A DNA stretch of 45,844 nucleotides from Magnetococcales bacterium. GTDB taxonomy: Bacteria > Pseudomonadota > Magnetococcia > Magnetococcales > JADFZT01. A program made the translations under genes and the position numbers. Numbering within the stretch: the stretch's first letter is position 1; every line of letters begins with the position of its first letter. A model generated the notes under the pieces. The model worked only from the letters and a program-made list of their open reading frames with translations, made no database searches and was not told the DNA's origin. Where the stretch lies: positions 1 to 45,844 of the forward strand of contig JADFZT010000037.1 of NCBI GenBank assembly GCA_015232395.1, given 5' to 3'. Shown here piece by piece: positions 6,989 through 22,788 of the stretch.

Positions 6989-9900
6989 ATGAAGAAAATC
7001 TTTCAACCGGTTATTGCTCTCCTTACACTCCTCATCGTCATACCGGCGATGGTGTTCGCAGGCGAATTGGCGGGTTCGGATACCTTGGCGGCGCGTAAAA
7101 AGAGCCTTCAGGAATCCACCCTCCTTCTGAGCCAGGCCCAGCGGGAGTTTGAACTCCTTAAGGATGATCAGAAAAAGCGCCTGTCTGAGCTGCAAGCGGA
7201 TCATGTTGACCGTAACTTGGTGGAACAGGGGCGTCTTGATTTCGAAGCGGCCCGCATGAGCGTGGAAAGCGCCGATGTTGATCTACAAAGTCTGACCAGC
7301 GTCATCAAAGCCGAAGAAGCCGCCATCACTCAGCTCCAGCGTCAGATTCAAGCCCTGAAAAGCGCCACGGGCCAGGATGCCGAAACGGCCCGCAAGGAAC
7401 AGCTGCCCACCCTGGAAATGGAACTTGCCGAAAAGGAAAGACTCCTCTCCCTCGACAGGCAACGACTTGGGACTCTGGAGAAACTGCGAAAGGTTGCACA
7501 ACTGCGGCACCTGTTGGCATTGGAGTGGGTGGAGACGTTACAAGATCACTTCACCACGATCCAGAGAAAAAACCAACAAGAGGCGCAGGAACAGATCCTT
7601 GCCGAACTCCAGAAAAAAATCATGGCGCTACGCGACAAAATGGTCGAGTGGCGCGGCGAGATCGGCTCTTTGCCGGGGGACTCCAGCGAAGTCAACGGAA
7701 AACGACAGTTGTTGGAGTGGCGTATTTTCTTGGCCGAAGAGCGCATCCGTTACTTCCAATTGGAAATCCACATAGCAGAACTCCGGAGTCAACGAGGACC
7801 TGAAAATGATTCTCTTCCTGGCACGGAGACGTCAACTTCTGAAATCCAGTCCCGATTGGACGGACTGACGGGCTTCCTGGCCGACTCCAAGGCGGCCTTG
7901 GACCTCCTGCGCCGAAAAGAGGAAGTTCTGAACCAGCTATTGACTGTCACCGAAAAGCGGCCAACAACCGAATGGTTCAAATCATTGCAGACCACGGATA
8001 TCCAGGGGCTGATTCAATCCTATGGCGGTTTGAGGGAAACGGTCGAGGGTTTGCGCCGGACCGCCTCGAAGGAACAAAGTTCCGTGCGCCACATGCTTTC
8101 GGCGCAAATTCGCGCCGACCTTCTAACTCGGCAGATATTGCCCGCCACCGTTGAGGAATGGCAGACCCTTGGAGCGGGCTTGATGGCGTTTCCTGGAGAA
8201 CTGGGCAACAAAGGCACGGCCGCGTTTGAAGATTTTGGCAGGGCGTTCAAGGAGGCGCCGCTGTATTCATTGGGTCTGCTGTTCGCCCTGGAAACCCTTT
8301 GGTTGGCTCTGGCCTTGTGGGTTCGTGGCAAGATGGTCAAACAACAGGGAGGCTCGGAATCAGAGGAAGAAGTCAGCTTTGGGAGAGCCACGGCGTTACG
8401 CGTTGGCCTCATGATCCGGAAAAATTTTTGGATTCTTCTTCCGGCTGGCGGACTTGCCATCGCGGTTCCTGTCTTGGAATTGACTCCCCCTGGAAGCGTG
8501 GTTCTCTACACCCTGGCCGCCCTCCCGCCGGCCATTGGAATTGGCCTTCAGGCCATGCGGTTTTTTCTGATCGAATTCAACCCAAACGCGGGAATTGCCC
8601 AGATACGCCGTTTTAGAATCATGGCCGCCGTGCTGGTATTGGGAAGCGTCTATTCCGGCATGGTGGCACTAACCCATGCCATGACCTTTGCCCAGCCGTT
8701 GCAGGACCTGCTGGACAGACTGTTCATGGTATTCCTGTTTCTGGGCATTCTCCCCATCTTCGGCTTGCGACAGGGGGTCATTTCAGGCCTGTCTGAACGT
8801 CTGGGTGAAGGTTACTGGATGCAGGTCATACGATTCTTGAGCCTCATCATCCCGCTTTCCTTTCTGGCTTCGGCGACCATTGGCTTGGCCGGATACGTCA
8901 ATCTTGGATGGGTGGCCGGAAAATATATCTCCTGGTTGATCCTGGTCCTGGTGACCTGGTCGATACTCCATGGCCTCTGGGATGATCTGAATGTCTACCT
9001 GAAAAACCGCATCAATCTCCAGGTCAGGAATGGTCTGTTCTGGATCCAGAGCGTACTCGATCCGATTTACCGGATCGTTCGACTGCTGCTGTTTGCCGGA
9101 GCTTGGTTCGGGCTGTTTTTTCTTTATGGATGGGACATCCAGTCCAAACCGGTTCAATTGCTCATCAAGGCCTGGTCGTGGGTTTTGTTCGACTGGGGTA
9201 AAACACCTATCCAGGTTTCGGATCTGGCGTTGTTGATCGTATTGATCGGCGGGTTTGTCTGGCTGAGCCGTTGGGTTCGGCAACTGACCTATCGGGTGAT
9301 GTTTCGGAAGGTCGCCGATGTTGGTATCCGACACAGCCTTTCCGTCTTTGCCCAGTATGCTGTCGTTATTCTTGGTTTTTTGTTCACCCTGCGCTACATG
9401 GGAATCGATCTGACCAACCTGGCTATTGTGGCCGGCGCATTGGGCGTGGGCATGGGTTTCGGCCTTCAGAACGTGGCCAACAATTTCGTCAGTGGACTGC
9501 TTCTTCTGTTGGAGAGGCCCATTCGAACAGGAGATATCATTCAGGCCAGCGCCAAGGAAGGGGAAGTTACCAAGATCGGTATTCGGGCGGTTACCCTCAA
9601 AACCTGGGACAATCATGAGGTCATCATTCCCAACTCGGAGATCGCCTCCAACACCTTTACCAACTGGACACACAGCAACCCTGTTATTCGAACGTTTTTC
9701 CTGGTGGGTGTGCATTACGATGCCGATCCCCACCACGCCATCCGTGTCATTCGTGAGGCCCTGAAGGAGAACGAATACATTCTGGAGGATCCCGAACCAG
9801 TGGTTTGGCTTAGCAATTTTGGCGCATCATCAGTAGACCTCCATGTCCATTATTTTTCCGATTGGCGCGTTCGCAAACCCATGGCCATCAAGTCTCAGGC

Positions 9901-10084
9901 GCTTCTTCAGATCTGGGACCGGTTCAAAGAGGAAGGCATCCAAATTCCCTATCCCCAACAGGACGTCTACCTGAAGGAGGTTCCGGATCCATGGGGGTGT
10001 CCCGTGAAATCCGAACCCCATCCAGGGATGGAGGAACAGCTGGAAAAACAACAGGGGGAGAAGGAAAATGGAAATCCAGAATAG
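6989..10084 (+). CDS. Large mechanosensitive ion channel, MscK/MscM-like
   Basis: A 1031-residue MscS-superfamily channel that releases solutes on hypo-osmotic shock. A signal peptide (residues 1-25) ends at VFA-GE. Residues about 28-330 form a long periplasmic coiled coil rich in Gln, Glu, Leu and Lys. A series of membrane segments follows from about residue 395. The MscS core holds the pore-lining helix ALGVGMGFGLQNVANNFVSG (from about residue 816) and the beta-domain entry LLERPIRTGD. A cytoplasmic alpha-beta domain ends the protein. The layout matches the large MscK (KefA)/MscM class, not the roughly 280-residue MscS. The next gene overlaps its end by 17 bases. Placement after two signalling genes suggests a shared role in osmotic or ion stress; that is inference. 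Confidence 0.92.
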   Translation: MKKIFQPVIALLTLLIVIPAMVFAGELAGSDTLAARKKSLQESTLLLSQAQREFELLKDDQKKRLSELQADHVDRNLVEQGRLDFEAARMSVESADVDLQSLTSVIKAEEAAITQLQRQIQALKSATGQDAETARKEQLPTLEMELAEKERLLSLDRQRLGTLEKLRKVAQLRHLLALEWVETLQDHFTTIQRKNQQEAQEQILAELQKKIMALRDKMVEWRGEIGSLPGDSSEVNGKRQLLEWRIFLAEERIRYFQLEIHIAELRSQRGPENDSLPGTETSTSEIQSRLDGLTGFLADSKAALDLLRRKEEVLNQLLTVTEKRPTTEWFKSLQTTDIQGLIQSYGGLRETVEGLRRTASKEQSSVRHMLSAQIRADLLTRQILPATVEEWQTLGAGLMAFPGELGNKGTAAFEDFGRAFKEAPLYSLGLLFALETLWLALALWVRGKMVKQQGGSESEEEVSFGRATALRVGLMIRKNFWILLPAGGLAIAVPVLELTPPGSVVLYTLAALPPAIGIGLQAMRFFLIEFNPNAGIAQIRRFRIMAAVLVLGSVYSGMVALTHAMTFAQPLQDLLDRLFMVFLFLGILPIFGLRQGVISGLSERLGEGYWMQVIRFLSLIIPLSFLASATIGLAGYVNLGWVAGKYISWLILVLVTWSILHGLWDDLNVYLKNRINLQVRNGLFWIQSVLDPIYRIVRLLLFAGAWFGLFFLYGWDIQSKPVQLLIKAWSWVLFDWGKTPIQVSDLALLIVLIGGFVWLSRWVRQLTYRVMFRKVADVGIRHSLSVFAQYAVVILGFLFTLRYMGIDLTNLAIVAGALGVGMGFGLQNVANNFVSGLLLLLERPIRTGDIIQASAKEGEVTKIGIRAVTLKTWDNHEVIIPNSEIASNTFTNWTHSNPVIRTFFLVGVHYDADPHHAIRVIREALKENEYILEDPEPVVWLSNFGASSVDLHVHYFSDWRVRKPMAIKSQALLQIWDRFKEEGIQIPYPQQDVYLKEVPDPWGCPVKSEPHPGMEEQLEKQQGEKENGNPE

Positions 10085-11042
10085 CCTGATTCATGCATTT
10101 ATCCTGGATGGCCAGGGTGGTGGACGTCCCATGGATTGGGATGAAATCAGATCCTGGACTCCGGAGCAGGGCTTTTTATGGGTACATCTTCAATTGGCCT
10201 ATCAGGAGAGCCGTGACTGGTTGCAAAAGGAGAGTGGCCTGGACGCCATCTTGACCGAAGCGCTTCTTGATTCGGATGGAGATCCTCGATTTGTGAAGGA
10301 AGGCGAAGGTCTGCTGGCCATGATGCGGGGTGTCAACCTGAACCGGGGCGCTGATCCGGAGGATATGGCGTTTCTGAACCTTTGGATCGACCAGAACCGC
10401 GCCATTTCCCTGCGTCGGGAAAAATTGATGTCGGTCCAGGACATCCGGAGGGAGATTGAAGCGAACAAAGGTCCAAAAGATGGGGGCGGGTTATTGGTTC
10501 GCTTGCTGGATCGTCTTTTGGACAGGATGGAACCGGTCATGGATGATCTGGAAAAGGAGTTGGATGAGATAGAGGTTCAGAGCGCCCAGGCAGTGAGCGA
10601 GGATCTTAGTGTTAAGCTCCTCGCCTTACGACATGAGGTGATCGGATTGCGGCGATATCTCATTCCCCAACGTCGGGCACTCGCGGCCCTTTATCGGGAG
10701 CCGGTACCCTGGCTGAAAAAAGTCCACAAACGGTGGATCCGGGAGAAAGATGATCAGATCCAGCGTTTTCTGGCAGACCTGGAATCCTACCGGGATCGTG
10801 CCATCGCAGTCCGAGATGAGATCAGCAGTCGCCTTTCGGAGCGGATGAACCGGGCCATGTACATGCTTTCCGTGGTGACCGGGGTGTTTCTGCCCCTGGG
10901 GTTTCTCACCGGACTTCTGGGAATTAATGTTGGTGGCATGCCCGGGGTGGAGTACAAGTGGGCGTTCTGGGTCGTTTGCGGTCTTCTCGCTGGCGTCACA
11001 GGCTTCAGCCTTTGGACCTTTCGCCGGTTGAAATGGATTTGA
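10068..11042 (+). CDS. zntB: CorA-family transporter, ZntB-like
   Basis: A 324-residue inner-membrane metal-ion transporter of the CorA superfamily. The long cytoplasmic N-terminal domain is followed by a charged stalk helix (about residues 150-260) and two C-terminal membrane helices. The first helix ends in GLLGINVGGMPG. The GIN in place of CorA's GMN, with GGMPG after it, is typical of ZntB, which carries Zn2+ with protons. The periplasmic loop is short, and the second helix leads to a short basic tail. AGAAGGA lies just before the ATG, inside the end of the channel gene, so translation is probably coupled. Cd2+, Ni2+ or Mg2+ remain possible substrates. Confidence 0.87.
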   Translation: MEIQNSLIHAFILDGQGGGRPMDWDEIRSWTPEQGFLWVHLQLAYQESRDWLQKESGLDAILTEALLDSDGDPRFVKEGEGLLAMMRGVNLNRGADPEDMAFLNLWIDQNRAISLRREKLMSVQDIRREIEANKGPKDGGGLLVRLLDRLLDRMEPVMDDLEKELDEIEVQSAQAVSEDLSVKLLALRHEVIGLRRYLIPQRRALAALYREPVPWLKKVHKRWIREKDDQIQRFLADLESYRDRAIAVRDEISSRLSERMNRAMYMLSVVTGVFLPLGFLTGLLGINVGGMPGVEYKWAFWVVCGLLAGVTGFSLWTFRRLKWI

Positions 11043-12028: not shown

Positions 12029-12880
12029 TCATATTGCTTTTAAATGGGTTAATGCCTCTTCCACAGTGACCAGATTATCACTCTTGCCGGTGTAAACCGC
12101 GTAGGCAATCCGCTTGAACGGTACTGCGTCCTGCACTAGGTGCAATGTACCCGCTTCCAGATCATCTTCAACCATGGTTTTGGCCAAATACGAGGCCCCG
12201 CCAAATTTTTTCAAGAAATCGTAGGCCATCCGCCCACGATCCAGGTGGAGGAACGGTGGTGGCAACTCCGGAAACCATCGGGCATGCTCAATGGTGAAGG
12301 ATAGCCCCCAGTCCACCATCAGGTAGTTGACGTAGTCCTCTGTGATCGCTTCCTGGGCGCTGATTCCTGATTTGGTGGAGACCATCACCAGTTCCACCGT
12401 AATCACCTCCTTGACCAGAAGCTCCCGCAGTTTTGGTGGTTCAAACATAAAGCCAACATCGATCGTCCTGCCCAACAGACTTTGAACCAACGCCTCTCCC
12501 CCGTGGGTCTCACATCGGATCGCCATATTGGAAAAATCACGCCGCAGGGTCTCGATCCATTCGGGAAGGTAGGAGTCCCAAAGACTGGGTTGTGCGCCAA
12601 TGACCAGTGTGGGCTGGCTGCTTTCATCCAGGGTCACGCTTTTGCGGGTTTCTTCCCATAAGCTGATAAGCCCCTCCGCCCCCTTCAAAAATCGCTGCCC
12701 GGCCGGGGTCAGTTGGATATCGTTGCGCTTTCGGGTGAAAAGGCGAACCCCCAGGATCTCCTCCAACTGCTTGATCCGGGTGCTGATGGCGGACTGGGTA
12801 ATGAACAGGTTACGGGACGCCCGCGCAAAATGACGGGTCCGATTCACCTCCAAAAATGTCTTCAGCAGATCGATATCCAT
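12029..12880 (-). CDS. LysR-family regulator, HdfR-like
   Basis: A 283-residue LysR-type transcription factor. The N-terminal winged helix-turn-helix (residues 1-60) contains LLKTFLEVNRTRHFARASRN and the recognition segment TQSAISTRIKQLEE, followed by GVRLFTRKRNDIQLTPAG. These are close to enterobacterial HdfR, a regulator linked to motility genes. The remaining residues form the periplasmic-binding-protein-like effector domain; its ligand is unknown. Start and length fit the family. It is divergent from the small secreted-protein gene that opens the long plus-strand series, with a 355-bp AT-rich gap between. LysR proteins often control the divergent neighbour and themselves, so this gene is a candidate regulator of the downstream cluster. 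Confidence 0.88.
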   Translation of the reverse strand: MDIDLLKTFLEVNRTRHFARASRNLFITQSAISTRIKQLEEILGVRLFTRKRNDIQLTPAGQRFLKGAEGLISLWEETRKSVTLDESSQPTLVIGAQPSLWDSYLPEWIETLRRDFSNMAIRCETHGGEALVQSLLGRTIDVGFMFEPPKLRELLVKEVITVELVMVSTKSGISAQEAITEDYVNYLMVDWGLSFTIEHARWFPELPPPFLHLDRGRMAYDFLKKFGGASYLAKTMVEDDLEAGTLHLVQDAVPFKRIAYAVYTGKSDNLVTVEEALTHLKAI

Positions 12881-13235: not shown

Positions 13236-13508
13236 ATGAACAAATCCATCCTCTCCACCGCGGCCATCATCGCCCTGGTTGTCGCCACCCCGGTTTGGGC
13301 TGAAACGCCGGACTTCGAGGAGAGCCAACAGGAGGATCAGGCCATTTGCGAGCGCTACGCCCAGGAAGATCAGGTCGCTCCGGACGAGGTGGCGGAATAC
13401 ATGAGCCAGTGCCTGCGGGATCTGAGCGGTTCAGCGGATGGGGATTACGGTCCCTCGGGCTCCGAGGAGGAGATTACCGTACTCAATGTGAAAGAGCCGC
13501 ACGGCTGA
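13236..13508 (+). CDS. Small acidic secreted protein, unknown function
   Basis: A 90-residue protein with a clear Sec signal peptide: MNKS, a hydrophobic core of about 14 residues, and a cleavage site after VWA near residue 22. The mature part, about 68 residues, is strongly acidic and has two cysteines (in AICERYAQ and SQCLRDL) that could form a disulphide in the periplasm. The ribosome-binding site AGGAGA precedes the ATG. I do not recognise a named family. It is the first gene of the co-directional series and is 66 bases before the Lys/Ala-repeat protein. Its acidic nature contrasts with that very basic neighbour, so an interaction is conceivable but unsupported beyond charge and position. 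Confidence 0.7.
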   Translation: MNKSILSTAAIIALVVATPVWAETPDFEESQQEDQAICERYAQEDQVAPDEVAEYMSQCLRDLSGSADGDYGPSGSEEEITVLNVKEPHG

Positions 13509-13574: not shown

Positions 13575-13913
13575 ATGAGCAGGAAGCACACAAAAAACGG
13601 CAAGGGCAACACCCCAAAAACCAAGGCGCAAAAAGCAGATAAAAAGATGAAAAAACAAGATGTGCAACCGGATTCCGGCACTGCCGATTCCGCTCAGGTG
13701 ATGGCTGAAAAAGCGGATGTCCAGGCTGTCGACACCCCGGTCGAGCAAGCCGGGAAAAAGGCCAAAAAAGCCAAAAAGGCCAAAAAGGCCAAAAAGGCCA
13801 AAAAGGCCAAGGTGATCGAGATGAAAGAAAAAAAGAAAGACCATGGCGGCAAGGGCAAAGGAAAAGCATCTCCCAGCGCTTCCCCACCGGTTCCCCTGGA
13901 GGCGGTTGCCTGA
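13575..13913 (+). CDS. Lys/Ala-repeat low-complexity protein
   Basis: A 112-residue, very basic, low-complexity protein without membrane segments. Its centre is a run of Ala-Lys-Lys units. The codons are almost perfectly repeated as GCC AAA AAG, so this is a 9-bp tandem repeat in the DNA (about 13759-13811). The flanks are rich in Lys, Gly, Ser and Pro. AAGGAG lies a few bases upstream of the ATG. Such sequences resemble the histone H1-like tails of bacterial nucleoid proteins, and the protein might bind nucleic acid. Next to an ATP-grasp ligase and a peptidase it is also a possible acceptor of amino-acid tags. I do not assign a function. Confidence 0.65.
   Translation: MSRKHTKNGKGNTPKTKAQKADKKMKKQDVQPDSGTADSAQVMAEKADVQAVDTPVEQAGKKAKKAKKAKKAKKAKKAKVIEMKEKKKDHGGKGKGKASPSASPPVPLEAVA
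13759..13811 (+). repeat. 9-bp tandem repeat coding Ala-Lys-Lys
   Basis: About five to six head-to-tail copies of GCCAAAAAG, one with an A for G change, lie inside the basic low-complexity gene. Because the unit is 9 bp, changes in copy number would keep the reading frame and alter only the length of the basic tract. Confidence 0.8.
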
Positions 13914-13993: not shown

Positions 13994-14821
13994 GTGATCA
14001 TCGAATCGATCAATAGCAGGAGATTCCCCATGTGGGAGCTGAAAGCCGGTGACAGCCCTTTGGTCGCAGTGGCTTTGCATCATGGCCACTTCATCTCCCC
14101 CAGCTTCTACAAGCTGTCCGCCCTTGAGGAGGATGAACGTCTTCGGGAAGAGGATCCCTACACCGGGAGTTGGACCAGCATCGCTCCCAACAGCATCGTG
14201 GTTCATCGCTCCCGATTTGAGATGGATCTCAACCGCCCCCGTGAACGGGCCGTTTATCTGCAGCCCGAGGACGCCTGGGGTCTGAACCTCTGGAAAGGGC
14301 CTGTGACGCCGGAGATGCAAAATCAGGCTCTGACCATGTATGACGGCTTCTATGCCCAGATGGAGTTGCTGTTCAACCAACTTCGGGCGCGATGGGGAAA
14401 ATTCGTGGTACTTGATCTTCACTCCTATAACGGTCGCCGCAATGGCCCAGCGGCGGATTGGGATCCACAGGAATTGAACCCGGATTTCAATATCGGAACC
14501 GGAACCATGGATCGGGAGCGTTGGGCTCCCCTGGTGGATGGATTCATCGCGGATATGCGCAAGTTCAGCTTTTTTGGCCGCAACCTCGATGTCCGGGAAA
14601 ACGTGAAATTCTTTGGCGGAGAACTGGGCCGTTGGGCCCACCAGACCTTTCCGGATTCGGCCTGTGTGATTTCGGTGGAGGTCAAAAAATTTTTCATGAA
14701 TGAATGGACCGGGCAGGCGGATCACCTGTTTTTGGATATGATCCGTTCTGTCTTGGCCTCAACAACCCCCAGGCTGATGATGGAACTTGAAAATCTTCGG
14801 GTTGGCCATATCGCCGCATAA
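13994..14821 (+). CDS. N-formylglutamate amidohydrolase-family protein
   Basis: A 275-residue protein of the N-formylglutamate amidohydrolase (HutG-like) family, zinc-dependent enzymes that cleave an N-acyl group from glutamate or related amino acids. Visible motifs are HHGH at residues 29-32, the Arg-rich SRFEMDLNRPRE segment, and VVLDLHSYNGRRNG, which carries the conserved Asp-x-His. The start is taken as GTG at 13994 because GGAG lies eight bases upstream; an internal ATG at 14030 would remove N-terminal residues. No histidine-degradation genes are nearby, so a role in that pathway is unlikely. Homologues are often found beside QEGLA/DUF1704 peptidases and ATP-grasp ligases, exactly as here, which suggests trimming of a ligase product or modified peptide. 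Confidence 0.85.
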   Translation: MIIESINSRRFPMWELKAGDSPLVAVALHHGHFISPSFYKLSALEEDERLREEDPYTGSWTSIAPNSIVVHRSRFEMDLNRPRERAVYLQPEDAWGLNLWKGPVTPEMQNQALTMYDGFYAQMELLFNQLRARWGKFVVLDLHSYNGRRNGPAADWDPQELNPDFNIGTGTMDRERWAPLVDGFIADMRKFSFFGRNLDVRENVKFFGGELGRWAHQTFPDSACVISVEVKKFFMNEWTGQADHLFLDMIRSVLASTTPRLMMELENLRVGHIAA

Positions 14822-14849
14822 CGGTGAAACCCTGAAAGGAGTCACAAAA

Positions 14850-15029
14850 ATGAAGCACAACCAGAAAAAGCCTGCCCATGGATTCTGCCTTTACCGGGGA
14901 AAAAGTTTTCCCCGATGGTGGGTCAGAATCCATAACGGCCAGTGGATTTGCTGGAAAAACAATCCCCTGCGGGAGAGTTGTCAAGTTAACAAGCAGAACG
15001 ATTGCGCCTGCCCTGAAAGTGAAAGGTGA
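14850..15029 (+). CDS. Cys-rich 59-residue protein, unknown
   Basis: A short frame with a strong ribosome-binding site (AAAGGAG, about eight bases before the ATG), 28 bases after the amidohydrolase gene. The product has five cysteines (13, 34, 44, 52, 54), four tryptophans (two in the pair PRWWVR), and a basic N terminus (MKHNQKKP). There is no signal peptide. The spacing of cysteines suggests metal binding or cross-linking. I do not recognise a family. In a cluster with a peptide-ligase-type enzyme and a peptidase it could be a substrate or a small accessory subunit. The strong ribosome-binding site and tight spacing argue that it is real. Confidence 0.55.
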   Translation: MKHNQKKPAHGFCLYRGKSFPRWWVRIHNGQWICWKNNPLRESCQVNKQNDCACPESER

Positions 15030-15122
15030 TGTCATGGAGCTGAACGTTGAGTGGAATGTTTGTTGTCTGGTCTTGAAACCGAAAAACCGGTCTCCCGAAT
15101 CAGTCCCCATTGGAGTCCCAGA

Positions 15123-15539
15123 ATGGACAGTATTGCTGTAGAACAAACGGTCAAAGGCAGGATTTTGATCATTGATGACGATGTATCCATCCTGAATTTG
15201 CTGGAGAGATCGCTCTCTAAAGCCGGTTTCCTCGTCAAAACCGTAAAAGATGGAAAAAAGGCCACAAAACTGCTCGATCGGACCCACTACGATATGGTGA
15301 TCACCGACATATTCATGCCCAATATGGACGGGTTTGAGGTGATTCGGAACTTTGCCCCTCGGGAAGTTGTAAAAATCATAGCCATGTCCTCAGGGGGGGC
15401 AAAAATGCCGCAATCCGATATCCTGGAAATCGCACTTCAGCTTGGGGCGGTTTTCAGTCTGACAAAACCTCTGAAGAAAGAGCTTTTTCTCAATATGGTT
15501 CAATCCATACTGGCGAAAGGAATGAACGATGAAAAATGA
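15123..15539 (+). CDS. Single-domain response regulator (receiver only)
   Basis: A 138-residue stand-alone receiver. The acidic pair sits in LIIDDDVSI, the phosphoacceptor is Asp62 in MVITDIFMPNMDG, the switch Ser lies in IAMSSGG, and the conserved Lys is in SLTKPLKK. No output domain is present, as in CheY and Spo0F-type relay proteins. The ATG at 15123 follows GGAG by eight bases; an upstream extension would overlap a possible 35-codon frame at 15034-15141. Its stop overlaps the start of the kinase-like gene by 11 bases, so the two are translationally coupled. No histidine kinase lies in this cluster; the partner must be encoded elsewhere, perhaps by one of the hybrid kinases in this window. 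Confidence 0.85.
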   Translation: MDSIAVEQTVKGRILIIDDDVSILNLLERSLSKAGFLVKTVKDGKKATKLLDRTHYDMVITDIFMPNMDGFEVIRNFAPREVVKIIAMSSGGAKMPQSDILEIALQLGAVFSLTKPLKKELFLNMVQSILAKGMNDEK

Positions 15540-16308
15540 TGACGCTTTGGATAAAGTTCAAGCCCTGATCAAATCCATTGGGTTCCAGGGTTCCAGAACC
15601 AATGGTAAACGGGAGATCGCGTCCTGCGGACCTGTAGTAACCATTGCCCGGGATTTTGGCGCTGGGGGAAATGCGGCAGGCCGAATCCTGGCGGGGAAAA
15701 TAGGGGTGCCCTGTCTCGACCAGGAGCTTCTTGATCAAATCGTGGAACGGATGAAAACCGATAAAAAACTGATGCGCCGATTTGATGAGAGACTTCCCCA
15801 AAGCTTCCTCGAAGATTGGTTGTATACGATGGTCACCAAAGGGGCTCCAAACAGGTCGGTCTACCATCAAAGGTTGATCCACCTTATCCAAGGAGTCGCG
15901 GATATGGGTGGCGTCATTTTGGGGCGGGGGGCCCACCTGATTCTGGATAATCGGAAAAACGTGTTTCGAATGCGCATCACCGGATCGGTGGAGGTATGCG
16001 CCAAGCGGATTGCGGACCGTGAGGGAGTGGACCTGGAAAAGGCCAAACGAATGATTACCCAGATCAATCAGGAGAGAATGGCCTTTGTTCGGGGACTTTT
16101 CAAACACTTCCCCTCTACCAAGACCTATTACGACCTGGTTTTGAATTCGGATGGGCTCACCCCTGACCAGATCACAGAGGTCGCTCTGTTCACCATGAAA
16201 CAAATGGGATTCCACGTCCCGGAAAGGAAAACCGACAATGGACGCCACCTCCCCAGTGCTAAGGACAGTGGAATCAAGCATGGGCAAAGCGCCTATCAAG
16301 CGGCGTAA
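15529..16308 (+). CDS. Cytidylate kinase-like family protein
   Basis: A 259-residue P-loop protein of the cytidylate-kinase-like family (Cytidylate_kin2). The nucleotide-binding loop is GAGGNAAG at residues 44-51, preceded by VTIARDFG. A central GVILGRGAHLIL segment and the arginine-containing KRIADREGVDLEKAKR lid region follow. True Cmk is usually near 225 residues and sits by rpsA; neither applies here, so housekeeping CMP phosphorylation is unlikely. Members of this family are often found with signalling domains or membrane proteins, and their substrates are mostly unknown. The gene overlaps the receiver upstream and the peptidase downstream by 71 bases, so all three are tightly coupled. 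Confidence 0.82.
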   Translation: MKNDDALDKVQALIKSIGFQGSRTNGKREIASCGPVVTIARDFGAGGNAAGRILAGKIGVPCLDQELLDQIVERMKTDKKLMRRFDERLPQSFLEDWLYTMVTKGAPNRSVYHQRLIHLIQGVADMGGVILGRGAHLILDNRKNVFRMRITGSVEVCAKRIADREGVDLEKAKRMITQINQERMAFVRGLFKHFPSTKTYYDLVLNSDGLTPDQITEVALFTMKQMGFHVPERKTDNGRHLPSAKDSGIKHGQSAYQAA

Positions 16309-18271
16309 TGGATACGGCATGAAATCGTCTGGTCATGATAATGGGCAAACAGTTCCCGGTTCCTTGTTGACAGCGGATGAACGCGCCTTCGTCGAAAAGG
16401 TCCGCCGGGAGTTGACCGCAAAAGGCCGGATCCGCGCCGCTCTTCCGGGTTGGGGACGGCTTCATATCGACCGGGCGCTGCCCTTTTTGTGCCTATATCG
16501 GCGACCATTCAATCAGACCGATGCGGGGATGGAAAAACTCCTGGCGGGGGAATCCGCCTATCTTGCGACCTCCGGGGAGAAAAAAAACGCCAAGTTGGTC
16601 ACGGCGCTGCTGAAGACCATCGTGGAGACCCTCGGCTCTCAGTTCGGGGCCTTTCTGATCATTGAGATCTGGGCGGAACCCGCTGGAGATGCTTTCGTAG
16701 GGGATGCCGACACGCCGGTAGCGGCTCCGGCATTCCGTATCTTTAGCCGGAAAAACCGACTGCTGGAATCCACCGTTCGGACATTTGAGACCAGCTTGCG
16801 GAGTTTTCGTTTCCAGAAACAGAAGGCTCAGGTTGATGTTGTTCAAGTGTCAAAATTTCCCTCGGTAAACAGGATGGCCGGCCTGACCATTCCGGCCGGA
16901 AGCGATGCCATCGACTGCCATGTCATGGGTCTGCAACTACGACCGGTCTTTCGGGAGCCCGGGGATGTGGAAACCTGCGAAGTGTTTCCTCTCCTGTTCC
17001 GCCAGTTCCGCCGAGGATTGAGCCATGGGATCCGAAAAGCCCTGTTCCGGTTTATGGAGAGCCGGACTTCCCAACGCCCGCCCCATTTTCAGGCCATGGG
17101 TCCGAGAGCGCTCACCAAACTGGTCTGGGAGGTGGACCGACGGCTGGCGGGGATCTGTGATAATTTCGATTATCTGTTTCAGGTGACTCCGGTCAACACC
17201 CATGCAGCTTGGCTGGCTTTTCAAAAAAATGGATGTCAGAAAGATCCTGAATTCTCTTATCGCCCACTCCCCTATGATCCCTCCGACCTGAAACGGCAGC
17301 TTTTCCAGATCCCCATGGAGCGGATCGAAGATCCGGCGCTAGCCCATTTGTTCCGGGAAAAACAGGATGAGTTGGACCGTATGATCAGCCTGCTGGGGGA
17401 TTGCAACACCTCCCGTTTTCTTCCTGGCAGTATCCAGATATTCGGAAGCGTGGACGAGAAGTTGAGCTTGCTGGCAGAAGAGATGCTCCAGAAAATTTCT
17501 CCCCGAACCCGGGGACGTGGCGCCAAGACCATCCCCCTGCCAAAACTGGTGGAACTGGCCCAGGATGAGATGCGTCACTACCGGGGTCTGAATCCCATTT
17601 TTTCAGCTACCGCACAGATCCGTGACGATGTTCCCAGCGGTTTTTTGGTTTCCAAGGGAGAGCTCTTTATCGGAGCCAAAACCAAGCTGCCATCCTACCG
17701 GTTGGAGGCGCTTCTCCAACATGAGGTCGGCGTGCATCTGGTAACCTGGTTCAATGGTCAAGCGCAGCCTTTCAAGCTTCTGAGCCATGGCTTGGCCGGA
17801 TACGAGGAGCTTCAGGAAGGACTCGCCGTTCTGGCGGAATATCTGGTGGGCGGGTTGTCGCCATTCCGGTTGCGCATCCTGGCCGCCCGGGTTGTGGCGG
17901 TCCAGTCAGTTGTCAAAGGTGCTTCGTTCACTGAAACCTTTCGATTGCTTCACGGCATGTATGGATTCTCCAGGCAGAGCGCCTTCCAAGTCACCATGCG
18001 CGCCCATCGTGGGGGAGGATTGACCAAGGATGCCGTCTATTTGCGCGGGCTTGGGTGGCTGTTACAATACCTGGCCAGTGGTGGTGAATTGGACCCATTA
18101 TGGATCGGCAAGATTGGAGTCCGCCATATCCCCATTATTCAGGAGCTTCGTTGGCGAAAGGTGCTTCAACCGGGTTATCTCACTCCCCGATTTCTGCATG
18201 AACTGAGCGCCCGGGAGAGAATGGAAAAACTGCAGTCCGGGATTACCGTTCTGGATCTTTTGGAATCATAG
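16238..18271 (+). CDS. QEGLA-motif (DUF1704) metallopeptidase, MATCAP-like
   Basis: A 677-residue protein of the family first named flavohaemoglobin expression-modulating QEGLA-motif protein. The predicted zinc site is HEVGVH (HExxxH, residues 495-500), followed by the family signature QEGLA at 526-530, whose Glu527 may be the third ligand. Eukaryotic members of the same DUF1704 superfamily (MATCAP) remove the C-terminal tyrosine of alpha-tubulin, so a C-terminal carboxypeptidase activity is plausible. The N-terminal half is family-specific. No signal peptide is seen, so it should act in the cytoplasm. The ATG at 16238 follows a GGAAAGGA sequence and lies inside the kinase-like gene. The ATP-grasp gene starts 13 bases after its stop. 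The peptidase role is inferred from superfamily knowledge. Confidence 0.88.
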   Translation: MDATSPVLRTVESSMGKAPIKRRNGYGMKSSGHDNGQTVPGSLLTADERAFVEKVRRELTAKGRIRAALPGWGRLHIDRALPFLCLYRRPFNQTDAGMEKLLAGESAYLATSGEKKNAKLVTALLKTIVETLGSQFGAFLIIEIWAEPAGDAFVGDADTPVAAPAFRIFSRKNRLLESTVRTFETSLRSFRFQKQKAQVDVVQVSKFPSVNRMAGLTIPAGSDAIDCHVMGLQLRPVFREPGDVETCEVFPLLFRQFRRGLSHGIRKALFRFMESRTSQRPPHFQAMGPRALTKLVWEVDRRLAGICDNFDYLFQVTPVNTHAAWLAFQKNGCQKDPEFSYRPLPYDPSDLKRQLFQIPMERIEDPALAHLFREKQDELDRMISLLGDCNTSRFLPGSIQIFGSVDEKLSLLAEEMLQKISPRTRGRGAKTIPLPKLVELAQDEMRHYRGLNPIFSATAQIRDDVPSGFLVSKGELFIGAKTKLPSYRLEALLQHEVGVHLVTWFNGQAQPFKLLSHGLAGYEELQEGLAVLAEYLVGGLSPFRLRILAARVVAVQSVVKGASFTETFRLLHGMYGFSRQSAFQVTMRAHRGGGLTKDAVYLRGLGWLLQYLASGGELDPLWIGKIGVRHIPIIQELRWRKVLQPGYLTPRFLHELSARERMEKLQSGITVLDLLES

Positions 18272-18284
18272 AGAAGGAAAAAAC

Positions 18285-19334
18285 ATGAAACTGGGATTTG
18301 TTATCAACAACATCAAGACCGAGGAGGTGGGTTACACCACTACCCGCCTGGCTATGACTGCCGCCAACCGTGGCCACGAAGTATGGTACATCAACCCTGG
18401 TGAATTCTCCTATGCTGCAGATGGTAAGCTTTATGGGGATGCTATTGGGCCATCAAAATCGGGATACAAGGCCCTCAAGACATTTCTTGCGGAGGTCCAA
18501 GGCCCCAAGGCAAAGAACGAAAGAATCTGCGTCTCGGACCTGGACATTCTCATGCTCCGCAATGACCCCGCCGGAGAAGAGGGCGAAGGCCGTTCCTGGG
18601 CGCGTAGCGCCGCGATCCAGTTTGGGCGTCTCGCCGCCGACCATGGGGTGGTGGTCCTCAATGACCCCAACAGTCTGGGCCGGGCCATGAACAAGATGTA
18701 TCTCCAACTCTTCCCGGAAGAGGTGCGGCCCCAAACCCTGATTTCCCGCAGCAAAGCGGAGATTCGCTCCTTCGCCAGGGAGATGGGTGGCAATATTATT
18801 CTCAAACCACTTCAAGGCTCCGGCGGCCAGGGGGTCTTTCTGGTGCGCAAGGATGAACTTTCCAACCTCAATCAGATGGTGGAGGCCATCAGTCGCGACG
18901 GATTCGTCATTGCCCAGGAGTATCTGCCGGCGGCCGCCCAGGGAGATACCCGCCTGTTCATGTTGAACGGCTATCCCCTGCGCTACAAAGGCAAGCTGGC
19001 CGCATTCCGCCGGGTCAACGAAAGCGGGGATATCCGCTCCAACATTCACGCCGGCGGCAAGAAAATGAAAGCTGAAGTGGATGAGGCGATGTTGCATGTA
19101 GCTGAAGTCGTCCGGCCCAAGCTGGTGCAGGATGGCATGTTCCTGGTGGGTTTGGACGTCGTTGGCGACAAGCTCATGGAGATCAACGTCTTCAGCCCTG
19201 GCGGCCTGGGCAGCGCCCAATCCTTCGAAAACGTCAACTTCAACATCCCGGTCATCGAGGCACTGGAGCGCAAGGTGGAATATATGAAGTTCTACCGCAG
19301 GAACTTTGACAACGTTGAGATGGCTACTTTGTGA
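18285..19334 (+). CDS. Glutathione-synthetase-like ATP-grasp ligase
   Basis: A 349-residue ATP-grasp enzyme of the glutathione synthetase/RimK class, which joins a carboxylate to an amine using ATP. Visible elements are the N-terminal pre-ATP-grasp domain (KLGFVINNIKTEEVGYTT), the central GGNIILKPLQGSGGQGVFLV loop that closes over ATP, and the C-terminal GLDVVGDKLMEINVFSPGGL segment with the Mg2+-binding Glu-x-Asn. Its length is close to GshB (about 315). GshB normally pairs with gshA, which is absent, so the acceptor may be another small molecule or the end of a protein. GAAGGA precedes the ATG. Pairing with the QEGLA peptidase is a recurrent arrangement for this family. Confidence 0.87.
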   Translation: MKLGFVINNIKTEEVGYTTTRLAMTAANRGHEVWYINPGEFSYAADGKLYGDAIGPSKSGYKALKTFLAEVQGPKAKNERICVSDLDILMLRNDPAGEEGEGRSWARSAAIQFGRLAADHGVVVLNDPNSLGRAMNKMYLQLFPEEVRPQTLISRSKAEIRSFAREMGGNIILKPLQGSGGQGVFLVRKDELSNLNQMVEAISRDGFVIAQEYLPAAAQGDTRLFMLNGYPLRYKGKLAAFRRVNESGDIRSNIHAGGKKMKAEVDEAMLHVAEVVRPKLVQDGMFLVGLDVVGDKLMEINVFSPGGLGSAQSFENVNFNIPVIEALERKVEYMKFYRRNFDNVEMATL

Positions 19335-19349
19335 CTTTTGGAAACATCA

Positions 19350-19991
19350 ATGAGTAACTTGTCTCTATCGTGGGGATGGCGGTGGCTGGTTGTTCAAACC
19401 AAGCGCCGCCTGATCCGTCCCATGCTGCGCGGTCAACATCCGCCCGAGTACACGGCCCGGGGAACAGGGGTTGGGCTTTTTCTCTCCCTGACGCCCACGG
19501 TGGGTTTTCAAATCCCCATGGTCCTCGGGATTTGGATGTTGACCAAACGCTGGATTCACCGTTGGGACTTCAACCCGGCGGTGGCCTGCGCCTGGACGTT
19601 GATTTCCAATGTCGTCACGCTGCCACCGCTCTATTACCTTTTCACCGTCACCGGTCGGATGATCATGGGGCGTTGGGAAAAACTTCGGGGGTTTGAAACG
19701 TTCAGTCAGAGACTTGAAAAAACGACCGAGACCGGTCAGCAAGGCCTGGATGCGCTCTGGGCTCAGTTGGTTGGCCTCATGGAGACCTTCGGATGGCCGA
19801 TGCTGGTAGGTTCCCTGCCCTGGGCCATTGTCGGCGGGGGAGTGGGTTACTGGTTGACCCTGCGGTTTTTGGAGCGGCACCGCTCTCGAATGGACAATAA
19901 ACGCGTCCAACTTGCGATCGGAAACCTGATAGCCCCATCAAAACCGGATCCCGGGCTGCCGACAGTTCCCACATCAAACGCAAATTCTTGA
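19350..19991 (+). CDS. DUF2062 membrane protein
   Basis: A 213-residue protein with a DUF2062 domain. The basic N terminus (KRRLIRPMLRGQHPPEYTARG) leads to a hydrophobic hairpin containing GLFLSLTPTVGFQIPMVLGI, the typical DUF2062 signature. A second hydrophobic pair lies at about residues 135-160 (FGWPMLVGSLPWAIVGGGVG). The function of the domain is unknown; it is sometimes linked to glycosyltransferases or lipid-related genes. The ATG at 19350 is chosen over an upstream TTG. It lies 15 bases after the ATP-grasp gene and 19 bases before mgtE. The Pro/Asn/Ser-rich C-terminal tail is probably disordered. It may anchor or localise other products of the series, but no motif supports a specific role. 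Confidence 0.8.
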   Translation: MSNLSLSWGWRWLVVQTKRRLIRPMLRGQHPPEYTARGTGVGLFLSLTPTVGFQIPMVLGIWMLTKRWIHRWDFNPAVACAWTLISNVVTLPPLYYLFTVTGRMIMGRWEKLRGFETFSQRLEKTTETGQQGLDALWAQLVGLMETFGWPMLVGSLPWAIVGGGVGYWLTLRFLERHRSRMDNKRVQLAIGNLIAPSKPDPGLPTVPTSNANS

Positions 19992-20010: not shown

Positions 20011-21378
20011 ATGGACGAACAGACAGAAACCCCAACTCCGCTTCCGGAGGAGGTCCTGCGTAATGCCATCGTGGAAAACGATACGCAGACCGTTCAGGAA
20101 ACCGTAAATGAAATGCCGGTCCTCGATATGGTCCAAGGTTTCAGGCGGCTTGAGGAAGAAGAGAAGGAAAGTGTGTTTCAGCTTCTGGAACCGGATGACG
20201 CGGCGCGTCTGCTACGGGTGATTCCGGATGTGGAGGCAGCTCAAGTCGTTGCCAGCCTTTCTTCTGAAAACGCAGTCAAAATTCTTAAGGAATATCCAAC
20301 TCATGATCAGGCTGAAATACTTCAGGACCTTACCCAGGCGGATTCCACCCGTCTTCTGGAGAGTATGGACCAGGAAAATGCCGATCAACTGCGGTTAATC
20401 CAGGAATATTCTCCGGATTCAGCCGGCGGCATGATGAATACGGAAACCTTGACCTTCCGTAATGGCCAAACGGTTGGAGAGGTGCTCAAGATTCTGGTCG
20501 CTGAAAAGGAAAAACACGAATCCGAGTTCAAGTTTTACCCCTATGTCATAGATGATCAGCGCCGGCTTGTTGGGGTTCTTTCCATTTTAAGGCTTTTTGG
20601 TGAACCATCATCCAAGACCATCGACTCCCTGGTTGCAGGTGCCACCCATGTTTCCACAGACAAATCCGTGGATGAACTGGCAATTATTTTTGACGAAACC
20701 GGATATTTCAGTCTCCCCGTGGTGGATGATGATGGCATTTTGATTGGCACGGTCTTTCAAGAGAATATCTCCTCCAGAAGGCGGGAGGAGGCGGAATCCG
20801 ACGCTCTGAAGAGTCAGGGTGTCATCGAAGAAGAATTGCGTACCATGCCGGTCTTTTTGCGCTCCCGCCGCCGATTGGCCTGGTTGAGCGCCAATATTGT
20901 ACTCAATATGATCGCTGCCAGCGTGATTTCAGCCTATGAACAGACCCTGACTGCCGTTATCGCCATTGCGGTGTTCCTTCCCATGGTTTCCGACATGAGC
21001 GGATGCTCCGGAAATCAGGCCGTCGCCGTAAGCATGCGTGAGCTCGCCCTGGGGATTGTCCGGCCTGCGGATATGTTTCGTGTCTGGATCAAGGAAATTT
21101 CGGTCGGATTGATCAATGGCATCGCCTTGGGAATTCTAATTGCTCTGGTTGCATGGGTTTGGAAAGGCAATCCATATCTTGGGCTGGTCATTGGCATCGC
21201 CTTGGCATTGAACACGATGATCGCTGTTTCGATTGGTGGTACCGTACCGTTGCTACTCAAGAGGCTTGGGGTTGATCCGGCTGTGGCATCCGGCCCCTTG
21301 CTGACCACCGTGACGGATATGGCCGGTTTTTTTATCGTCTTGAGTCTTGCAACGATTATGATGCCTTGGCTGGTATGA
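20011..21378 (+). CDS. mgtE: Magnesium transporter MgtE
   Basis: A 455-residue MgtE-type Mg2+ channel. The N-terminal superhelical domain (to about residue 130) contains repeated short helices such as LEPDDAARLLRVIPDVEAA. The tandem CBS pair follows: SAGGMMNTETLTF begins the first CBS, and DKSVDELAIIFDETGYFSLPVVD lies in the second. A plug helix leads into five membrane segments, with the pore and selectivity region in VFLPMVSDMSGCSGNQAVAVSMRELALG. Mg2+ binding at the CBS/N interface normally closes the channel. Domain order and length match the family. An insertion-sequence fragment starts about 20 bases after the stop, so the original downstream context is lost. The ribosome-binding site is weak. 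Confidence 0.93.
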   Translation: MDEQTETPTPLPEEVLRNAIVENDTQTVQETVNEMPVLDMVQGFRRLEEEEKESVFQLLEPDDAARLLRVIPDVEAAQVVASLSSENAVKILKEYPTHDQAEILQDLTQADSTRLLESMDQENADQLRLIQEYSPDSAGGMMNTETLTFRNGQTVGEVLKILVAEKEKHESEFKFYPYVIDDQRRLVGVLSILRLFGEPSSKTIDSLVAGATHVSTDKSVDELAIIFDETGYFSLPVVDDDGILIGTVFQENISSRRREEAESDALKSQGVIEEELRTMPVFLRSRRRLAWLSANIVLNMIAASVISAYEQTLTAVIAIAVFLPMVSDMSGCSGNQAVAVSMRELALGIVRPADMFRVWIKEISVGLINGIALGILIALVAWVWKGNPYLGLVIGIALALNTMIAVSIGGTVPLLLKRLGVDPAVASGPLLTTVTDMAGFFIVLSLATIMMPWLV

Positions 21379-21399: not shown

Positions 21400-21648
21400 T
21401 TGAGTCGGCGGAAGACCCAGATGCTGACGCCAGCCACGTCTGCGATGAGCCCGCAAACGATCCTGTTTCTCCCGCCCCATGCGCCAGAACTCAACCCTAT
21501 GGAGCATATCTGGGATGAATTGCGTGAGAAGTGGTTCCACTCTCTTGAACGGCATCTGGAAGCTGCTCTCCAAGCCCTGGAAAAAGACCACGCGCGCGTG
21601 CACTCTATCGTGGCGTGGCCATGGATAAATAATGCTCTGTTGATTTAG
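21400..21648 (+). pseudogene. IS630-family transposase, C-terminal remnant
   Basis: The 82-codon frame contains FLPPHAPELNPMEHIWDELREKWF, described here by its key parts: the PPHAPELNP run and the catalytic Glu of the IS630/Tc1-type DDE triad in MEHIWDELR. The helix-turn-helix and the two catalytic aspartates that should precede it are missing. The remnant lies directly against the end of mgtE, which marks the deletion or insertion boundary. It is not functional. Confidence 0.75.
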
Positions 21649-21674
21649 AGTTGGAATTATCCTAAATCCGGCAG

Positions 21675-22277
21675 TTGGGCGTGTGTGGCTGGTGCAGAAT
21701 ATTGGTTCACATAGTGAATTGGGAGAAATCGCTGTCACCTGATTGGTCACAAGACTTTCTCCCGATTTGCTTGGTGGATCAAGTCTTGGCAAGTACACAT
21801 AACGGTCGGATTCCCCGTGATTTTTGGCTGGAGGATTGGGAACGCCAGGCGATCATCGCCTTTTTCCATGAGCATCCCTTGGAGGGCTATCGCCGCCTGA
21901 CCTACATGATGATGGATGCCGACATCGTGGCCGTGAGTCCTTCCACCGTCAGGCGGGTTCTCAAGAAGGCTGGCCTCCTCACCCGCTGGAATCCAGGCAA
22001 ATCCCTGAAGGGAACCGGCTTTGTTCAGCCCTTGAAGCCCCATGAACACTGGCATACGGACGTGTCCTATCTGAACATTAGCGGCACATTCTACTACCTG
22101 TGCAGCCTCCTGGATGGATGCAGCCGGACCATCATTCACTGGGAGATCCGGGAATCCATGACTGAACAGGATGTGGAGATCATCATCCAGCGCGCCAAGG
22201 AGCAACACCCGGAGGTCCGTCCACGCATCATCTCGGACAACGGCCCCCAGTTTATCGCCAAAGATTTCAAGACCTTC
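21675..22277 (+). pseudogene. IS3-like integrase-core transposase, truncated at both ends
   Basis: An internal fragment of an IS3-like (OrfB-type) transposase. The helical segment EGYRRLTYMMMDADIVAVSP leads to the integrase core, with first catalytic Asp in HWHTDVSYLN and second in IISDNGPQFIAKDFK. After DFKTF the sequence leaves the family, and the third catalytic residue (Glu, about 35 residues later) is missing. The open frame runs on to 22358 only because it enters unrelated DNA. The N-terminal leader and OrfA are absent. Next to the IS630 remnant this shows repeated insertion and loss at the end of mgtE. Confidence 0.75.
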
Positions 22278-22391
22278 AATCTCAGTCAGACGTACGCTGC
22301 CACGGGCCGCAACACCATACATCACCTCATCCACCAACCGCCGTGCCACTTTTCCTAAACCGACTGAAAGTCTCCCCGAAAAATGTGCCAT
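22278..22391 (-). pseudogene. Possible IS4-type transposase N-terminal scrap
   Basis: The minus strand from an ATG at 22391 reads a 38-codon peptide with GKVARRLVDEVMYGVAARG and SVRLTEI, which resembles the N terminus of IS4-type transposases. It ends exactly where the IS3-like fragment begins on the other strand, so the two are fused end to end. The call is from a short match and is tentative. Confidence 0.4.
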
Positions 22392-22534
22392 CTGGGAGCG
22401 GATTTTGGTCGCAGTCTGCGGTATCATGAGATGGGGCCTCCTTTTGGTGAGTTGGTGTTCCTGGCTTCGCAACCGGAATCCTACCCCACCGGGGAGCGCC
22501 CCTCATCCTGCAAAAAGTCTCCCCAAAAATGCCC
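22367..22534 (+). repeat. Direct repeat pair in insertion-sequence debris
   Basis: AAAGTCTCCCCGAAAAATG (from 22367) recurs as AAAGTCTCCCCAAAAATG (from 22514), 147 bases apart and in the same orientation. The remainder of 22392-22788 holds no gene I can support. The pair may be remains of insertion-sequence ends or a small non-autonomous element. Confidence 0.45.
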
Positions 22535-22788
22535 ATTTCACTTCCAAACCAACATTTTCTCCCATTGAATCATCGTGTTGCGCGCATCGAACCCTGATTT
22601 TTTAGGGAAAGTCCTGCTGAACGGATCCTTGACTCGGCTCTGTCCGCCCTTTTAAAGAGAATCTACTGATTACTGAGTAACAGACGGTTTATCCTCCTCA
22701 TACGTCGTTCTCGGATGAAATCCAGAGGCTTTGTTGGGTTCGCCCGTTGGCAGCCACGAAACCAATCATAAAAACAGGATGGAGTGAT

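Follow-up and report, generated by a model that had tools for sequence, protein, structure and literature searches.

The window analyzed here is a 45,844-nucleotide stretch (contig JADFZT010000037.1, assembly GCA_015232395.1) of the 4.94-Mb genome assembly of a Magnetococcales bacterium. It contains the only PF08014 match of that genome, in a gene for a long QEGLA/MATCAP metallopeptidase that lies between genes for an N-formylglutamate-amidohydrolase-fold zinc amidase (here referred to as FGase) and for an ATP-grasp ligase resembling glutathione synthetase (GshB). We refer to these three genes as the cassette. The features of the operon, in window positions, are as follows.

13994-14821, + strand: FGase, a separate, active-type copy (PF05013, 63 bits against a cut-off of 28.9)
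15051-15539, + strand: response regulator receiver protein, within the operon (profile match)
15529-16308, + strand: cytidylate-kinase-like protein (Cytidylate_kin2, PF13189), not a conserved part
16238-18271, + strand: QEGLA/MATCAP metallopeptidase, long form (PF08014, 298.2 bits against a cut-off of 27; TIGR02421, 353.9 against 338.65)
16424-17071, + strand: putative pseudo-FGase N-terminal domain of the QEGLA protein, residues ~63-278 (hhalign, predicted model, motif loss)
17174-18268, + strand: C-terminal MATCAP catalytic domain of the QEGLA protein, residues ~313-677 (structure match to 7z6s/7z5g)
17720-17737, + strand: HEVGVH zinc motif of the QEGLA protein, residues 495-500 (alignment)
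17813-17827, + strand: QEGLA motif, residues 526-530, with the third zinc ligand E527 (alignment)
18285-19334, + strand: GshB-like ATP-grasp ligase, subfamily PRK12458 (463.8 bits against a cut-off of 408)

The ligase starts 13 bases past the stop codon of the peptidase gene, a distance that the initial annotation had given and that the open reading frame (ORF) coordinates confirm, and the HExxxH and QEGLA motifs of the peptidase likewise lie at the residues it had named. The peptidase ORF overlaps the kinase-like ORF by 71 bases, and its true start may therefore be further in.

Conservation of the cassette was assessed with an alignment of the ligase only, searched against contigs from 84,980 species, each represented by a single genome. 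This search yielded 19 confirmed loci, distributed over Magnetococcales, Acidobacteriota, Bacteroidota, Chloroflexota (Anaerolineae), Actinomycetes, Verrucomicrobia, Ignavibacteriales, and one unclassified bacterium. MATCAP lay immediately upstream of the ligase in 16 of the 19 loci, so that the pairing of ligase and peptidase first noticed in the window recurs across phyla, and FGase was present in 14. The order is FGase-MATCAP-ligase on a single strand, with gaps mostly between -17 and +32 bp; the exceptions are gaps of 98 and 122 bp and an FGase-MATCAP gap of 1.4 to 2.0 kb in two Magnetococcales, the window among them. At one locus the ligase sits at a contig end (L029), at two the FGase is missing at a contig end (L030 and L046), and at another a broken ligase has neither neighbor, in an assembly without a QEGLA protein (L047). 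Among plasmid records, the ligase query matched 168 and the MATCAP query 127, and most of the matched records are rhizobial. All six rhizobial megaplasmid loci that were read have the three parts in order, and Sinorhizobium meliloti 1021 carries the cassette on pSymB. Within 200 genomes sampled from the phylum, among them that of the window, the ligase scored over its cut-off in 6 genomes and a QEGLA protein was found in 17. The QEGLA gene adjoins the ligase in five of these six; in the sixth (G105), an assembly that is 82% complete, the ligase lies at a contig end and no QEGLA protein was found. One genome (G109) has three ligase copies (contigs C16, C47, and C283) in cassettes of differing completeness. 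Judging from this gene order, FGase, QEGLA/MATCAP, and the GshB-like ligase are a conserved cassette across very different bacteria, including the Vibrionaceae described below. We found no description of it in the open-licence library searched. The 2009 survey of ATP-grasp amidoligases by Iyer and colleagues reportedly treats ATP-grasp gene neighborhoods and may mention the cassette, and we therefore claim no priority.

The C-terminal half of the QEGLA protein has the MATCAP fold in its predicted model, which matched 7z6s and 7z5g over 291 residues (Z 23.8 and 23.7; root mean square deviation [rmsd] 3.2 for 7z6s). MATCAP ranked first, and DUF885, M32, and ACE-like zinc peptidases followed at Z 9 to 16. 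HEVGVH aligns with HEIGTH of human KIAA0895L (MATCAP1/TMCP1), and H495, E496, and H500 are invariant across all rows compared. The proposed kinship to MATCAP is thus upheld by both fold and zinc site: the human and bacterial proteins share the catalytic fold, HExxxH, and the (E/Q)EGLA zinc site, whereas the bacterial protein has an additional pseudo-FGase domain and its gene shares an operon with those of an ATP-grasp ligase and an FGase. The human relatives strip Tyr, Phe, Ala, Glu, and poly-Glu off the C termini of tubulin tails, as described in passages of PMC10499314.

The N-terminal half of the unfused long QEGLA protein aligned with the FGase profile in hhalign (Prob 89.5, E 2e-6), and its predicted model matched 2q7s (Z 12.6, 177 residues); hhalign of this half against the ligase gave nothing (Prob 0.3). 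None of 22 aligned pseudo-FGase domains has His at the position of the catalytic His143, and all 22 lack the EEDP and SRxxxDLNR motifs. The N-terminal half of the unfused cassette peptidase is thus a predicted dead FGase domain with its catalytic motifs lost.

The glycine of HE-x-G-x-H is common to all cassette peptidases read and to human MATCAP1. The 12 partnerless short QEGLA proteins that were read (L070-L078, L080, L083, and L090) have HEx(L/W/F)xH, and this difference is a possible marker separating QEGLA classes. At 11 loci with short QEGLA proteins from other Pseudomonadota, no ligase or FGase was found within ~6 kb, as far as the contigs extend, and the neighbors differ between loci. 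The Vibrionaceae have nine QEGLA places of fewer than 600 amino acids without a ligase, one of them a 53-residue fragment. One genome (G089) encodes a second long QEGLA protein with no ligase nearby (L079; 6158-8080 and 8061-9110, both on the - strand); an AstE/AspA-type (PF24827) deacylase precedes it where the FGase would be, which may reflect the replacement of one M14-type amidase by another.

The predicted model of the window FGase (predicted local distance difference test score [pLDDT] 91.2) matched the N-formylglutamate amidohydrolase structures 2q7s (Z 24.2, rmsd 2.5, 239 residues) and 2odf (Z 22.7), with more distant matches to M14 carboxypeptidases and poly-gamma-glutamate hydrolases at Z ~12. 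At the sequence level, a profile built from four FGases had no match among solved structures; the structural matches came from fold comparison. The window protein keeps the zinc-type residues H29, E52, E53, D141, H143, and E229 and the SRxxxDLNR motif, all of which we take to be typical of the N-formylglutamate amidohydrolase family. FGase enzymes act on N-acyl-glutamate. Despite sharing fold, zinc-type residues, and motif with that family, the cassette FGase falls far below the HutG equivalog cut-off (TIGR02017, 15.6 versus 278.75 bits) and is paired with or fused to MATCAP, in keeping with the initial annotation's doubt that it serves in histidine degradation. On Sinorhizobium medicae pMl3 (L085, 4202-8914), the FGase is broken by two group II intron reverse-transcriptase genes, and the QEGLA and ligase frames are open.

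In the Vibrionaceae, FGase and MATCAP are joined into one fused QEGLA protein. Of two fusions checked with Pfam, one (L089) has FGase at residues 39-214 and MATCAP at 326-659, and the other (L088) has the same two domains. Among 121 Vibrionaceae genomes, 49 had a QEGLA match (51 places) and 40 had the ligase, which in all 40 lies directly upstream of the QEGLA domain on the same strand, separated from it by 875 to 909 bp, the length of the FGase domain. The fusion of one of these 40 genomes (G224) appears as two separate ORFs. Three long fusions have no adjacent ligase (G217, G279, and Vibrio HDW18); G217 and G279 are rated 100% complete and contain no PRK12458 ligase at E <= 1e-100, and the absence in HDW18 covers one replicon. 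The FGase site is damaged in all three, by His143->Tyr in one, by His143->Arg together with Glu229->Gly in another, and by disappearance of the motifs in the remaining one. Because the damage differs, these losses of the FGase site are suggested to have arisen separately. In contrast, the six FGase residues listed above are intact in 25 of the 25 fusions read with a ligase. These 25 were drawn from 24 of the 40 ligase genomes and a Photobacterium DA100 record and include some close relatives; the other 16 ligase genomes, G224 among them, fall outside the count. With relatedness ignored, the contrast between 25 of 25 and 0 of 3 intact sites would arise by chance once in 3276. All 28 fusions, and the 12 short QEGLA proteins as well, retain intact MATCAP zinc residues. 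Since the FGase site decays where the ligase is missing, FGase probably acts on the ligase product; since the MATCAP zinc site stays intact without the ligase, MATCAP would have a use of its own. On the evolutionary data, the link to the ligase product is thus stronger for FGase than for MATCAP.

The window ligase passes the PRK12458 subfamily model and is closest among solved structures, by sequence, to bacterial glutathione synthetase 1GSA (E 1.5e-38), with RimK-type ligase structures behind it (E 1e-7 to 3e-6). Its Pfam matches are to the GSH-S, RimK, and YheC/D models. The description of the protein as a glutathione-synthetase-like ATP-grasp ligase accordingly stands, and the likeness to 1GSA takes in both domains and most of the chain. 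The cassette ligase differs from GshB in belonging to a separate subfamily without a clear tie to GshA, in having the C-terminal loop FSPGG where GshB has TSPTC, and in a short insertion before conserved arginines in the alignment. It fails the glutathione synthase equivalog TIGR01380 (195.8 versus 299.05 bits), which fits poorly with the textbook role, as had been argued, and it also fails the RimK alpha-L-glutamate ligase model TIGR00768 (72.5 versus 143.4). The glutathione-synthase model PRK05246 (cut-off 272) is passed by the Vibrionaceae ligase of L089 (291.7) and failed by the window ligase (209.2). In none of the 29 genomes or records searched did a cassette ligase reach the TIGR01380 cut-off, and a separate canonical GshB was present in all nine Vibrionaceae checked.

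The initial annotation had also argued from the absence of gshA. This absence holds for the window but not for the genome, which encodes a GCS2-type gshA on another contig (G000:C2:65299-66219, E 5e-74), so the argument as worded does not hold; a PF04262-type gshA was not found in the source genome. GCS2-type GshA occurs in 40 of 48 Magnetococcales, whereas the six ligase-bearing genomes of the 200-genome sample are all Magnetococcales. All six also carry GCS2-type GshA, and their cassette ligases are their sole GshB-like matches at E <= 1e-30. Other GshB-like matches in the Magnetococcales of that sample have E ~1e-24 or weaker. Among 13 cassette genomes from outside the Magnetococcales, most of them metagenome-assembled and possibly incomplete, GshA of either type was absent from nine: PF04107 matched in four (one weakly, E 4e-4) and PF04262 in none. 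GCS2-type gshA does not seem to track the ligase. The cassette product in general would not be glutathione, and a glutathione role may exist in the Magnetococcales themselves.

The neighborhood of the cassette offers hints of its physiological setting. MscS domains (PF00924) occur in the flanks of 5 of 14 loci (the window, L034, L035, L036, and L041) against 0.16 expected from per-genome copy number (P 1.5e-6), or 4 of 13 against 0.14 without the window (P 6.5e-6), in an estimate that treats genes as randomly placed and was drawn up once the first channels had been noticed. Pfam analysis of flanking proteins found a channel-type transmembrane domain and a Na+/H+ exchanger beside the cassette of L044, an SLC12-like protein of the amino-acid-permease family in L034, MgtE genes in L036 as in the window, and a universal stress protein in L041. 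Downstream of the ligase in L030, L033, and L046 are rlo-type genes (PF05618, Transglut_i_TM/7TM, and ATPgrasp_ST), called by Pfam for three L030 and two L033 proteins and by BLAST clustering for the rest, for L046, and for remnants in L031. Operons of the rlo kind combine genes for a retropepsin-like protease, an inactive transglutaminase-7TM protein, and an ATP-grasp protein. The rloABC hypoosmotic-tolerance operon of Pseudomonas aeruginosa resembles the cassette in combining an ATP-grasp protein with a peptidase, but the families differ and the rlo peptidase is secreted. As described in parts of PMC12239564, loss of all three secreted RloA proteases leaves P. aeruginosa unable to cope with hypoosmotic stress, a defect that deletion of rloB or rloC rescues. 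In Photobacterium damselae, passages of PMC10308900 give increases of 38.4-fold for RS17020, annotated as GshB, and 27.5-fold for RS17025, a QEGLA protein, in 1% versus 3% NaCl.

Several points weigh against an osmotic setting, beginning with the random-placement assumption and the post hoc nature of the MscS estimate. No MscS domain was present in the examined flanks of L037, L038, L039, L040, L042, L043, L044, L045, and L047, and the annotations around the rhizobial cassettes read include none. The other transporter neighbors come from 20 flanking proteins picked by eye, without a control, and the rlo-type genes adjoin cassettes of one Magnetococcales family only. The P. damselae genes are presumed to be the cassette from their consecutive tags and the family pattern. 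The channel, rlo-type, and low-salt hints agree with one another, but none is proof, and many cassettes have no such neighbors. We consider it an even question whether the cassette works in a low-osmolarity setting.

Taking these data together, FGase, MATCAP, and the ligase very probably form one functional module; the distance matrices of the three parts also correlate over 16 loci (r 0.68-0.90). Our preferred reading, to which we give about an even chance, is that the cassette is a reversible peptide-bond module, likely making a short glutamyl-type peptide in adaptation to low osmolarity or ions. The ligase would use ATP to join an amino acid onto the free carboxylate of a soluble acceptor, which is somewhat more apt to be a small molecule than a protein. 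FGase, as an N-acyl-glutamate-type amidase of carboxypeptidase fold, would hydrolyze or otherwise process the ligase product, and MATCAP, as a second carboxypeptidase, would trim the C terminus of the acceptor or product and would also be able to function in the absence of FGase and ligase. The pseudo-FGase half of the peptidase probably serves to dock or position the active FGase, a role that covalent fusion would fill in the Vibrionaceae. A reversible, probably C-terminal glutamyl, amide bond is suggested by the carboxypeptidase-type folds of both hydrolases, the specificity of human MATCAP relatives, the action of FGase enzymes on N-acyl-glutamate, and the retained SRxxxDLNR motif. The product would most likely be a short glutamyl-type peptide other than glutathione, made and turned over on low osmolarity or shifting ion load. 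The sequences themselves show the cassette, the fusion, the dead domain, the conserved zinc sites of both hydrolases, and the decay of the FGase site without a ligase; from these patterns we infer in which direction the reaction runs, that its product is glutamyl, that the pseudo-FGase half docks FGase, and in what physiological setting the module works.

Other observations count against this module. One locus has MATCAP and the ligase but no FGase despite room for it, in a genome that holds further ligase copies (L031), and another has FGase and the ligase but no MATCAP, either locally or in the assembly (L042), so the three parts are not strictly inseparable; for the action of FGase on the ligase product in particular, L042 agrees and L031 disagrees. 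Shared ancestry accounts for part of the correlation between the distance matrices. Some pseudo-FGase domains still have Glu at the position of Glu229.

The main alternative, which the initial annotation had put forward, is a cycle of protein C-terminal tagging, with the ligase extending a protein tail by one or more residues that MATCAP and FGase would remove again; it follows the precedents of tubulin tyrosine ligase (TTL) and MATCAP for tubulin and of RimK and RimB for RpsF. The MATCAP fold with its full catalytic set and the trimming of tubulin tails by the human relatives (parts of PMC10499314) speak for it, as do the rlo-type genes beside some cassettes. According to passages of PMC12239564, RimK and RimB add and remove glutamate on RpsF in Pseudomonas, a system that also encodes an ATP-grasp ligase with a reversing peptidase, although RimB is a retropepsin and the RimK-RimB substrate is known. 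P. damselae RimK, at another locus, was induced 52-fold in the same low-salt data (passages of PMC10308900). However, the ligase is far closer to small-molecule glutathione synthetase than to RimK-type enzymes, no partner protein gene common across phyla was found, and FGase, whose family consists of small-molecule amidases, follows the ligase more closely than does MATCAP; we regard tagging as unlikely. A more ambitious version of reversible modification, for which we hold out little hope, would have a C-terminal peptide-bond code, written by the GshB-type ligase and erased by FGase and MATCAP, serve ion and osmotic balance at low salinity, with the eukaryotic tubulin-tail carboxypeptidases descended from the bacterial eraser; the sole argument for such descent is the HE-x-G-x-H glycine that MATCAP1 shares with cassette peptidases.

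If the ligase were instead a divergent synthase of glutathione or another thiol, and the hydrolases recycled its product, one could understand why GshB domains align over most of its chain, why all six ligase-bearing Magnetococcales have a GshA and no other strong GshB-like match, and why the L089 ligase passes PRK05246. The uniform failure at TIGR01380, the separate GshB in the Vibrionaceae, the far wider occurrence of GCS2 than of the ligase in Magnetococcales, and the lack of GshA in 9 of 13 other cassette genomes, with only a weak match in a tenth, make this decidedly improbable. An operon that salvages or detoxifies acyl or peptide amino acids, with the ligase only rebuilding a metabolite from fragments, would suit the carboxypeptidase-type folds of both hydrolases and the position of the Sinorhizobium cassette among sugar and metal transport genes; but a tightly coupled ligase would be unexpected in catabolism, and no transporter or catabolic partner except MscS and MgtE recurs across phyla, which makes salvage very improbable. 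Chance adjacency of genes without shared function is refuted by the order and strand conserved across phyla, the Vibrionaceae fusion, and the correlated loss, and its probability is next to nil. The bacterial QEGLA/DUF1704 family is widespread under a name that says little of function, and one large class of it would belong to a ligase/amidase/carboxypeptidase module. The cassette gives a testable enzyme system in the tractable S. meliloti 1021, and the reversible peptide-bond reading, if true, would provide a bacterial setting for the human tubulin carboxypeptidase family and perhaps a new peptide of low-salinity adaptation.

Several further proteins were considered as cassette members or substrates. 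The initial annotation had counted both the FGase and the kinase-like protein in the set; the former belongs there, but BLAST (E 1e-3) found no homologue of the latter in 34 cassette loci, which places it outside the conserved set. The clustering of flanking ORFs has no bearing on kinase membership, since it took longer minus-strand ORFs over the window kinase and FGase. The response regulator was also rejected: besides the window, it lies inside the cassette in L032 alone (the same place as L023), between FGase and MATCAP, and weak matches at other loci fall outside the cassette. Clustering of flanking ORFs of at least 60 residues found no carrier or substrate gene common to different phyla. 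The small protein at 13236-13508 was rejected as a tagged substrate; its relatives are confined to Magnetococcales and have dissimilar C termini, and by reading it begins like a secreted protein, which the cassette enzymes do not. A 70-residue upstream protein of S. meliloti and S. medicae, without a Pfam match, was present only in these two among the loci compared and was set aside as well.

The flanking features of the window are as follows.

6989-10084, + strand: MscS-type mechanosensitive channel, ~4 kb upstream of the cassette (PF00924 at G000:C37:9470-9673)
10068-11042, + strand: CorA-like magnesium transporter, named by ORF reading (homologues adjoin the cassette in L031 and L046)
12029-12880, - strand: divergent LysR regulator, HdfR-like but below the HdfR cut-off (profile search, flank clustering)
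13236-13508, + strand: small protein with a signal-peptide-like start, by reading (relatives upstream of the cassette in other Magnetococcales only)
19338-19991, + strand: DUF2062 protein, 3 bases past the ligase (profile match)
20011-21378, + strand: MgtE magnesium transporter, next after the DUF2062 gene (profile match)

No homologue of the DUF2062 protein was found in other cassette loci. A divergent LysR gene stands beside the cassette in Magnetococcales in the window, L022, L031, and L033, and in Vibrionaceae the cassette is preceded by a LysR gene and then a DUF413 gene in L088 (annotated), L089, and L120 (both by reading). The small upstream protein family of Magnetococcales, found in the window, L022, L031, and L032 (two copies), combines the signal-peptide-like start with two conserved cysteines. 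Positions 13575-13913 of the window encode a lysine-rich low-complexity protein with a run of AKK repeats, and just past MgtE, at 21400-22605, are ORFs that by reading resemble transposase remnants.

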